NCBI GenBank assembly: GCA_019634625.1
Contig: JAHCBA010000003.1
Span: forward strand, 186,001-250,000
Source: Verrucomicrobiia bacterium
GTDB lineage: Bacteria > Verrucomicrobiota > Verrucomicrobiia > Limisphaerales > CAIMTB01
Reading direction: 5' to 3'
Length of the DNA stretch: 64,000 nucleotides
Positions 32,067 to 34,763 of the stretch are shown here, one piece after another. The position numbers and the translations under genes are program-made. The notes under the pieces were generated by a model, which saw only the letters and a list, made by a program, of their open reading frames with translations, was not told the DNA's origin and did not search any database. Each line of letters starts with the position of its first letter. The first letter of the stretch is position 1.

Positions 32067-32134
32067 TCGTTTGGTGTGCACGCTTTAGTGTGTTCGGGTG
32101 GTTTGGGAGGCTCACGCTGAAGCGTGTACCCAAC
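32067..32134. repeat. Imperfect inverted-repeat element
   Basis: Arms at about 32069-32092 (gtttggtgtgcacgctttag..) and 32112-32134 (revcomp gttgggtacacgcttcagcg) pair imperfectly around a GC-rich loop of about 20 bp, giving a hairpin of about 66 bp. It lies immediately before the MITE-like element. Non-coding; likely another small palindromic repeat. Confidence 0.6.
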
Positions 32135-32147
32135 CGGGCTTGAAACG

Positions 32148-32310
32148 CGGTGCATCCCGGAGTCGTGGGGAGAGGTGCGAACGTCGCGAAGCGTCGCTTC
32201 GGAGTGCCGAGTTCCATGAAGCCTCAACAGTGTGGAGCGTTGGGTTGAGGACTCGCGGAGCTCGTCCCTCCGATTCGCGGCCCCCGCACCCACAACTCCG
32301 GGATGCACGG
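32148..32310. mobile_element. MITE-like element, full copy (163 bp)
   Basis: The ends are imperfect inverted repeats of about 23 bp: left cggtgcatcccggagtcgtg, right (reverse complement) ccgtgcatcccggagttgtg. The element is flanked by the 7-bp direct repeat TTGAAAC (32140-32146 and 32312-32318), which looks like a target-site duplication. It carries no transposase. The interior (from gagaggtgcgaac through ggagctcgtccctccg) recurs at 32925-33071 and 34671-34763 in the same orientation. Together with the preceding hairpin it fills the gap between 31983 and the tRNA gene. Confidence 0.7.
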
Positions 32311-32437
32311 ATTGAAACCTTGAAACCAAGGGGCGACTTTGCGCTTGCAGCCCGGCCGCTGGACGGCGAGTTTAGGCGCCCGGTCGCTCCAAAGGCGCTG
32401 GCACCAAATGGGATGCAGGTGCCTAACGAGGGGTTCT

Positions 32438-32512
32438 GCGCGCTTAGCTCAGTGGTAGAGCACTTCCTTCACACGGAAGGGGTCTAAGGTTCGAATCCTT
32501 AAGCGCGCACCA
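32438..32512 (+). tRNA. tRNA-Val (anticodon CAC)
   Basis: A 75-nt tRNA with 3' CCA encoded. Acceptor stem GCGCGCT/AGCGCGC is perfect, D stem GCTC/GAGC, anticodon stem CTTCC/GGAAG with loop TTCACAC (anticodon CAC, reading GTG), T stem TAAGG/CCTTA with loop TTCGAAT. A recombinase-like fragment begins about 70 bp after its 3' end, the usual arrangement for integration at a tRNA gene. Confidence 0.97.
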
Positions 32513-32584
32513 TCCTCAAGGTCTTCCTGGTCAGTCAGATCCACCTTACCATCAACGACTTGTAGCTGCAGTCGTTTCCTTGGG

Positions 32585-32922
32585 GTGTGGACGTTCTTTG
32601 CCACCCGGAAGGAGGCGGAAGTCGAGGCGGCGCGGTTGCGGGAGCAGGTCGAAACGGCAGGCGCGGTCTGGTTGTCGCTCCCAACCTCCACCCGCGATGA
32701 GTTGGTCCGCTTCCACCAGGCTTGTGGCGCTCGCGGCCTGGACTGCTGGGATCTCTTGCGGGCGTACGATGGCCGGGAGATCCAAACCAGTGGCCCGTCG
32801 CCGGCCCTCAAGGCAGTGATCGACGAGCAAGGTGATGTTGCGCCCCGACCCAGCGTCACCCGCACGTCCGATGGGCTCCAGTTCCGATGGCAGCCGGGTT
32901 CGGTGTTCCGTCTCGAATCGAG
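32585..32922 (+). pseudogene. Fragment resembling the N-terminus of a tyrosine recombinase (integrase)
   Basis: The first 110 or so codons of an open frame encode WTFFATRKEAEVEAARLREQ, then SLPTSTRDELVRFHQACGARGL and SPALKAVIDEQ. This matches the general pattern at the start of many integrases (F-x-T-[RK]-x-EAE helix, then a helical segment before the SAM-like domain). No catalytic domain (R...HxxR...Y) follows: the frame runs into the second copy of the MITE-like repeat near 32925. The first codon assigned is GTG at 32585, but similarity may begin slightly earlier. Its place just after tRNA-Val supports the recombinase reading. The assignment is by pattern only. Confidence 0.5.
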
Positions 32923-32924
32923 CT

Positions 32925-33071
32925 TGGGGGAGAGGTGCGAACTTCGCGCAGCGTCGCCTCGGAGGGGCGAGTTCCACGAGGCCGCAACGGTGTGGAGCGC
33001 CGGGTTGTGGACTCGCGGAGCTCGTCCCTCCGGTTCGCTGGCTCGGTACCGACAACTTGGGGATGCACCGT
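32925..33071. mobile_element. MITE-like element, second copy
   Basis: Same order and orientation as the 32148 copy: gagaggtgcgaac, gcgtcgc, gcgagttccacgag, acggtgtggagcg, actcgcggagctcgtccctc, and a right end gacaacttggggatgcaccg. The left inverted end is too diverged to place exactly. It interrupts the recombinase-like frame. Between it and the next gene (33072-33260) I see no gene. Confidence 0.65.
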
Positions 33072-33260
33072 GCACGCAAGGGTAAGGCAGGCAGTTCTTG
33101 ACAATGGTTTTAGGGCGGCGTACGCCATGCATCGTGCCAGCATGCGGTGGTTTCAACTTCCGGCTCTTTCTCAACGATGGGGTGGAGCCACAGACGGAAG
33201 GGTTGCCACTGTCGCAGGGGCACTCCGGTTGGATGATTGGCAAAAACACAGATTGAAATC

Positions 33261-34529
33261 GTGAAGACGTCAAGATTGACCTGCCTTTACTGGAGCGCGT
33301 GCCTGGGCATTGTGAGTTGGTGTTCCAGCGGATACAGCGACACCCGGCCCGTGATGACGCCCTGGACGGATGCAATGCAAATTCGTGTGCCATCCGTCGG
33401 CGCGGAGCGGCCTTGGGAGGATCTGGTATCTCAAAGTGCGTCCCTGGCGCTGGAAGGTTCCGGTCGTCCTGCCGTTCAAGTCCGGCGGATCTGGAATCCG
33501 AGAACCGGAGCAGTGTGGATAGGTCCTGATTACCATGCCTATTACGTCATCGGAGAGCGTATCGTCGGCTTCCGTACTCTCGGCCGGGCACTCGGTGTAC
33601 GATTCAGCGGTGATGCTGTGTCGACAGGTTCCGACCTCGATACGATTGCCGACCGATTCGCGGCTTCCGTCAAGTCGCTGCTGCCCGACGATAGCCATGA
33701 CGATGTCGGTGTGGATTTATCGTTGCTATTTGGAAGGGAAGTCTTGGTGGGACTCGATGCCCGTCCATTCTTCCCGGCGCTGGCATCGATAACATCGATC
33801 AAGGCGAATGAGACGGATGTCTCCGTGGCGCTGGAGCCGGTGACAAAAGTACCGTTGAGCGTCACCTTCGACAAGGAATGGCGTTTATGGAAGGTTTCGA
33901 TCGACGGAGTGGAGGCAGTCGTTCTTGGCGTGGATGCGGGTAAACCAAGAGGGCGCAGAGCATCAACCTGGGGGCCACCTGCTGTCTTGGCGGTGAAGTC
34001 GGAAAAAGGTGCGATCAAGGGGAACGTGAGACACGCCAACAAGATTTTCGAGAGGTGCAAGGACGGTCGGGAACGGCAGTTCATGTTGGTCTCCACTGAA
34101 GGAGGACGGATTTGGTGCGGACCGTCAGGTACGGACATCGTGCTCCACGACGACCAATTGGTTGGGTTCATGGTGGACGACTCCGGGATTTTGCTCGCCT
34201 GCCACAGCAGCATGCGCGTTCCTCTGACACGGGACGTCGTCCACGTGTTTCGCGAGTGGATGACGCGGATCGAGAACGATGCGTTGACCGGCACTCTGGA
34301 ACGCACCCGGGTGGTTGATATTTGGGATGTCGTAGGTCCGATGCCTGTCGGTATCGAGAAGAAGCCGGGAGATGTGGGCCCGATCAGCGTCAAGTGTCTG
34401 GAGGATGGGCAGCTTGGCCTGGAGATGGAAACAACGCATCCGTATGGACGGCTTTCCTTGCGGCTCACTTCCGATCTCGAATTTGTTGAAGGTGCATGGA
34501 AGGGCCCAAGCGCCGAATCCGTCCGGTGA
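33261..34529 (+). CDS. Unrecognised protein, probably exported; lower G+C
   Basis: A 422-residue frame starting at GTG 33261 (reading as MKTSRLTCLYWSACLGIVSWCSS), which looks like an export signal; a TTG at 33237 is an in-frame alternative. I recognise no family. The sequence contains two apparent halves with related phrases (RIWNPRTGAVWIGPDYHAYYVIGERIVGF near residues 75-105 and QFMLVSTEGGRIWCGPSGTDIVLHDDQLVGF near 265-300), suggesting an internal duplication. Its base composition is clearly more AT-rich than neighbouring genes, and it sits between copies of the MITE-like repeat, so recent acquisition is likely. No ribosome-binding site is obvious, so the start is uncertain. Confidence 0.6.
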   Translation: MKTSRLTCLYWSACLGIVSWCSSGYSDTRPVMTPWTDAMQIRVPSVGAERPWEDLVSQSASLALEGSGRPAVQVRRIWNPRTGAVWIGPDYHAYYVIGERIVGFRTLGRALGVRFSGDAVSTGSDLDTIADRFAASVKSLLPDDSHDDVGVDLSLLFGREVLVGLDARPFFPALASITSIKANETDVSVALEPVTKVPLSVTFDKEWRLWKVSIDGVEAVVLGVDAGKPRGRRASTWGPPAVLAVKSEKGAIKGNVRHANKIFERCKDGRERQFMLVSTEGGRIWCGPSGTDIVLHDDQLVGFMVDDSGILLACHSSMRVPLTRDVVHVFREWMTRIENDALTGTLERTRVVDIWDVVGPMPVGIEKKPGDVGPISVKCLEDGQLGLEMETTHPYGRLSLRLTSDLEFVEGAWKGPSAESVR

Positions 34530-34670
34530 TGGGCCTGATCGAGGAGGCCTATGCGGGGGAGATCTTGAGGGCAAACGCTGTCTGGTATGAATGGGGCTTG
34601 GTTGAGCTCCAATACTCTCCTGGTAAGCGGCTTGCGTCGTCGGGTGTCCGGCAGGGTCCCGAAGATCCAC

Positions 34671-34763
34671 CGGCCCGCAACGGTGTGGAGCGTTGGGTTG
34701 AGGACTGGCGGAGCTTGTCCCTCCGATTCACGGCCTCCCCACCCACAACTCCGGGAGGCACCG
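34671..34763. mobile_element. MITE-like element, left-truncated third copy
   Basis: Only the right part of the element is present, from ccgcaacggtgtggagcg through gcggagcttgtccctccg to the right inverted end acaactccgggaggcaccg. The left half is missing. It lies in the 309-bp gap 34530-34838, which otherwise holds no recognisable gene. Confidence 0.65.

Follow-up and report, generated by a model that had tools for sequence, protein, structure and literature searches.

In Mutator-like elements of prokaryotes the inverted ends measure 18-39 bp and carry a terminal C, and the duplications are 8 or 9 bp long (Guerillot et al. 2014, PMC3942029), and part of the ISKra4 group inserts upstream of promoters (sigma-A, several members; PMC3942029). 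REPINs consist of two inverted REPs and a spacer and form a hairpin; Bertels and Rainey (2011, PMC3116915) suggested that they may serve as building blocks from which larger repeats are assembled. NEMIS/Correia, ERIC, Nezha and RUP (listed in PMC3733652) are non-coding, measure 70-300 bp, have inverted ends and often lie beside genes. The repeat family analysed here, from a Verrucomicrobiia bacterium, resembles this last set in these respects, although its ends and its parent differ from theirs. We hold with considerable confidence that it is a high-copy non-coding MITE, cross-mobilised by an ISKra4-like transposase, which captured a REPIN and expanded in one lineage. To our knowledge none of NEMIS/Correia, ERIC, Nezha and RUP is built around a REPIN.

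The window, that is, the whole stretch of 64,000 nucleotides analysed, is C3:186001-250000 of G000, the 6.74-Mb assembly of this genome in 88 contigs. The preliminary description had seen three copies of a MITE-like repeat there. They share one 142-nt repeat family, copies 2 and 3 being 85% and 73% identical to copy 1, and the 22-nt core pattern matches only these copies in the window (0 in 100 shuffles). Copy boundaries were set by a profile built from full copies; both further copies were confirmed, and their limits moved from 32925-33071 to 32921-33070 and from 34671-34763 to 34663-34763. The features are as follows.

32139..32147, left flanking target duplication of copy 1, CTTGAAACG, in the 9-bp frame of the family; TTGAAAC is the same on both sides
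32148..32310, + strand, MITE copy 1, full length, 163 bp (2 bp + 159-bp model + 2 bp); C3:218150-218308 with 2 bp each side, full-length nhmmer hit and best match of the genome search
32150..32169, + strand, left terminal inverted repeat of copy 1, GTGCATCCCGGAGTCGTGGG, from the inverted-repeat pair
32201..32223, + strand, REP, left arm of the copy 1 REPIN core, from sequence and the REP +/- pair at 48-bp offset
32249..32271, - strand, REP, right arm of the copy 1 REPIN core, from sequence, core pattern and 48-bp offset
32289..32308, - strand, right terminal inverted repeat of copy 1, from the inverted-repeat pair
32311..32319, right flanking target duplication of copy 1, ATTGAAACC, in the 9-bp frame of the family
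32921..33070, + strand, MITE copy 2, lacking the outer ~11 bp of the left terminal repeat; C3:218921-219068, nhmmer model 12-159 (window 32921-33068) with 2 terminal bases
32961..32983, + strand, REP, left arm of the copy 2 REPIN core, from sequence
33009..33031, - strand, REP, right arm of the copy 2 REPIN core, from sequence and core pattern
34663..34763, + strand, MITE copy 3, lacking the left 60 bp of the model; C3:220663-220761, nhmmer model 61-159 (window 34663-34761) with 2 terminal bases
34702..34724, - strand, REP, right arm, remaining in copy 3, from sequence and core pattern

The imperfect inverted ends reported earlier for copy 1 are there: the best ungapped pair, 32150-32169 with 32289-32308, is complementary at 19 of 20 positions, and the left repeat corresponds to the consensus end shared with the coding transposons described below. 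TTGAAAC is likewise present at 32140-32146 and 32312-32318. As a 7-bp duplication it had been read too short; the repeat is real, but the duplication of the family is typically 9 bp, and TTGAAAC is the identical part of two 9-bp flanks that match at only 7 of 9 positions. As described earlier, none of the three copies encodes a transposase, and the sole ORF tested that crosses one (32585-33085) has no Pfam match; the last ~50 of its 166 residues come from copy 2, and no family match was found for it. Copy 1 lies upstream of a tRNA gene (32438-32509, Rfam search) and also of a small reverse-strand gene resembling DUF2007. That tRNA was the only Rfam match in the window, so the MITE is not a catalogued RNA. 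A different repeat, with CACGCTTCAGCGTG / CACGCTGAAGCGTG, is found at window 32075-32140 and at other loci (e.g. L023 and L037), and another carries CGCCCTTCGGGCTGAGTACGAG; both recur beside REPs and are further repeat families of G000.

Across the 6.74-Mb genome, the core pattern GACTCGCGGAGCTCGTCCCTCC occurs at 583 places with at most 3 mismatches (reversed-pattern control, 0), a density of about one per 11.6 kb, and the terminal repeat at 459 (control, 1). The genome search that the preliminary description called for thus returned several hundred dispersed copies, some 400-600. Family statistics were taken from contigs C1-C4 (1.17 Mb, 17% of the genome), where the profile search gave 91 non-redundant matches, 76 of them MITE-derived and 15 REPIN or REP only, covering roughly 0.9% of the sampled DNA. 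Both ends are present in 38 copies and many others are truncated; scaled by length, this corresponds in the whole genome to about 440 copies that derive from the MITE, of which about 220 would be full. The copies are uniform: 29 of the first 37 end-to-end pairs measure exactly 159 bp, and median identity is 91% to the consensus and 84% between pairs. With 163 bp, no coding capacity and terminal inverted repeats of 20-23 bp, the element has the features of a MITE.

Alignment of the flanks, also proposed earlier, revealed short duplications at most full copies, with a modal length of 9 bp rather than 7. A direct-repeat score of at least 6 was reached by 71% of the 38 full copies, compared with 2% of mismatched left/right flank pairs. 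The repeats are mostly stretches of 9-11 bp. Their frame is not uniform; the commonest, with 7 of 27 cases, places a 9-bp repeat 2 bp outside GTGCAT...ATGCAC. The terminal base is C in most copies, which together with the 9-bp modal frame fits the end rule of the ISKra4 group (PMC3942029). A check for shared flanks and for inconsistent ends or duplications, either of which the preliminary description took to speak against transposition, found consistent ends and duplications, and flanks that differ except at one duplicated pair (C33:39072 and 40540). Spread by segmental or tandem duplication would account for that pair and for the ~97-bp tandem arrays in which the core occurs, but nearly all copies differ in their flanks, and the 38 full copies have uniform ends, most with matched short duplications. 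On the flanks and the flanking duplications we reject segmental duplication, and give duplication in place of transposition almost no weight.

A candidate for the enzyme that the preliminary description placed elsewhere, and the full-length transposon it asked for, were found in a coding element with the same ends, both in a congener and in the genome itself. Searching the genus, we came upon a small congener contig (L069; JADLFD010000012.1, a Verrucomicrobiales MAG) that carries a pair of terminal repeats in facing orientation, separated by 2.2 kb. This element measures 2195 bp, has perfect 23-bp inverted ends (23/23), and encodes a DruA/DUF4338 protein (PF14236, E=4e-23) together with a transposase that matches the ISKra4 family best (NF033572, E=5e-45) but, at 154 bits, stays under the cut-off of 205. 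The transposases found here score E=5e-45 to 7e-52 (154-177 bits) against the NCBIfam ISKra4 model, below the curated cut-off of 205, and we therefore call them ISKra4-related rather than ISKra4. By sequence they appear to be related to the Mutator-like DDE transposases of p-MULT 4. A close relative with the same layout and end type lies in G000 at C21:98859-101049 (L091:2360-4550), has ~59% identity in both proteins, and is directly adjoined by a MITE copy. Its transposase gene, the only close copy in G000, is interrupted by a TGA ahead of the catalytic Glu region, so this copy has probably lost its function, barring readthrough of the stop; a better one may be missing from the assembly.

MITE ends and coding ends are identical at up to 22 of 22 positions. 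With at most 3 mismatches, these end patterns found no match outside the family in 1.17 Mb, and 20 shuffled patterns gave 0. Throughout the order, close relatives whose sequence includes the region also have an end of the GTGCATCC type ~29 bp past the transposase stop. At neither coding transposon copy (L069, C21) was a clean 9-bp duplication found. Like the ISKra4 group and p-MULT 4 (PMC3942029), the transposases share the D...D...E arrangement in which a D(2)H motif follows the second D: D164, D254, D275-x2-H278 and E371 are invariant in three aligned relatives, the catalytic assignment having been made by eye. The elements here also resemble that group in their inverted ends of ~20 bp with terminal C, their duplications near 9 bp and, by crude gene calls, perhaps the position of full copies mostly upstream of genes (PMC3942029). 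They differ from it in the transposase score under the curated cut-off, in the DruA-like gene that accompanies the transposase in the coding element, and in the lack of any coding part in the MITE. Hundreds of dispersed non-coding copies with unrelated flanks, uniform ends and short duplications, and a coding transposon with the same ends, bear out the earlier reading of the repeat as a MITE.

DruA/DUF4338 genes were seen at several loci (L069:159-1022, L091:2426-3280, L092:2333-3259, L093:2135-3010, L094:2546-3499 and L096:2236-3138, the last on the reverse strand). They adjoin differing transposases, ISKra4-related or IS66 (NF033517, E=7e-81); in L093, the neighbouring ORF matched no family and lies within inverted ends of 55 bp. 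A second ISKra4-related transposon with DruA (L092:2215-4863, on G000 contig C35) has perfect 28-bp ends, AGGGGCGCATCTCAGATTTTCGGAAGGG, and a free REP right at its left border. The DruA-like proteins look like transposon accessory genes here; in the literature searched, no paper was found that links DUF4338 to a transposon role.

At about positions 50-124 of the consensus, the MITE contains two 23-bp REPs of the GGAGGGACGAGCTCCGCGAGTCC type in inverted orientation, offset by 48 bp; 51 such pairs were counted. REPs also occur away from MITE ends (35 of the 153 REP-like sites in 1.17 Mb of G000), several of them as the same 48-offset pair with different flanks. The consensus is matched in 19 of the 146 genomes of the order, the window's own included. 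The loci inspected in the order have the REP, frequently as two inverted copies whose spacers differ in length and sequence from the one here, and in many genera it occurs with no GTGCAT ends around it. To judge from these occurrences, the interior of the MITE is an independent REPIN, not transposon DNA. Since this REPIN is independent of the MITE and more widespread, we infer that the MITE captured it; distribution alone would also suggest the order of events, with the REPIN first and capture afterwards. As in described REPINs, free copies and tandem clusters also occur (PMC3116915). The REP core forms short tandem arrays with a period of ~97 bp at C9:46961-47177, C10:33105-33321 and C3:185258-185376. 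Most G000 copies differ from those REPINs in being enclosed in DDE-transposon ends, with no RAYT partner tied to the REP.

A different view would make the family REPINs moved by a RAYT, a Y1/HUH transposase, with the outer inverted repeat a mere extension of the REPIN hairpin. The core is indeed a REP pair, the genome has 30 Y1_Tnp matches (Y1/RAYT-like genes), and the whole element folds as one long hairpin, the REPIN stem lying within the terminal stem (z -6.1, compared with -3.75 for the REPIN alone). Flanking duplications are not expected of Y1 transposition, but they are present here; the ends of a DDE transposon are identical to the outer repeat, and REPINs occur across the order without MITE ends. 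Nor do these REPs consistently flank the Y1 genes: of 17 loci with Y1/RAYT-like genes, most have no REP of the MITE type nearby, so that the interior appears REPIN-like in form, with no consistent REP-RAYT pairing at these loci. The duplications and the identity with DDE-transposon ends largely refute a RAYT as mover of the full element, and we consider this view improbable. About 25 copies of one Y1 transposase family (IS200-like, RAYT-like) were seen in G000 (e.g. C8:47174, C38:23001 and C14:89476); several lie where contigs end, which suggests that the assembly breaks at a high-copy repeat.

Among five genomes of the family, high copy number is limited to G000, with 529 matches at up to 2 mismatches, compared with one in G001 and none in the other three. 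The expansion is thus absent from four congeners and the burst is lineage-specific. One MITE (G000 C1:111492-111649) occupies the extreme end of hisA, immediately upstream of ligA, and alters the predicted C-terminus of HisA. None of the four congeners has an element after hisA; the genes downstream of hisA differ there, so the comparison shows absence of the element rather than a clean empty site.

By a simple, crude gene finder made for this analysis, 16 of the 38 full copies lie in divergent gaps, more than expected by length (p=0.002), and 2 of 38 in convergent gaps, a depletion (p=0.02). Such placement, together with the strong hairpin, could mean that selection keeps the family as a host control element, a promoter-proximal insulator or terminator hairpin, with function outweighing parasitism. 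However, insertion upstream of promoters is known for some elements of the ISKra4 group (PMC3942029), so that no selection would be needed to explain the placement. Truncation is common among the copies, and the placement rests on those crude gene calls. We regard host control as improbable too, if anything slightly more so than movement by a RAYT.

Transposition by an ISKra4-related enzyme would proceed as follows. The terminal repeats, C-N-GTGCATCCCGGAGTTGTGGG..., would serve as the sites recognised by an ISKra4-related DDE transposase of Mutator type, which the ~2.2-kb transposon with the DruA/DUF4338 gene would provide in trans. The transposase would bind the ends, cut, and join the element to new DNA, perhaps through a circular or other intermediate; family knowledge and the footprints suggest that insertion makes target duplications of ~9 bp. 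In this way the element most likely moved to new sites, often upstream of genes. A transposon derivative would have captured the REPIN, an order-wide repeat that also exists without MITE ends, and the chimera would then have been amplified to hundreds of copies in one lineage. Amplification or activity may since have slowed, because the sole close transposase has an internal stop and the copies stand ~9% from the consensus.

These results go beyond the preliminary description in the size of the family, several hundred copies, in its 9-bp duplications, in the parent transposon and in the REPIN that forms the interior. The MITE is of a known kind; the nested REPIN structure with an identified parent is an unusual variant of it, and in the literature searched no paper was found that connects ISKra4 with MITEs in Verrucomicrobiota. 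The building-block suggestion of Bertels and Rainey (PMC3116915) gains a concrete example here, and a phylum in which few mobile repeats have been described gains a MITE family whose parent transposon is identified. The linked DruA-like gene, present in transposons with different transposases, bears on the role of DruA proteins. The burst in one lineage, absent from four congeners, makes the timing and manner of spread testable. The element may even be truly nested, a REPIN inside DDE-transposon ends spread by two unrelated enzymes, one ISKra4-like DDE and one Y1/RAYT; we think this rather unlikely, but if true, spread by both would explain its unusual success in one lineage.
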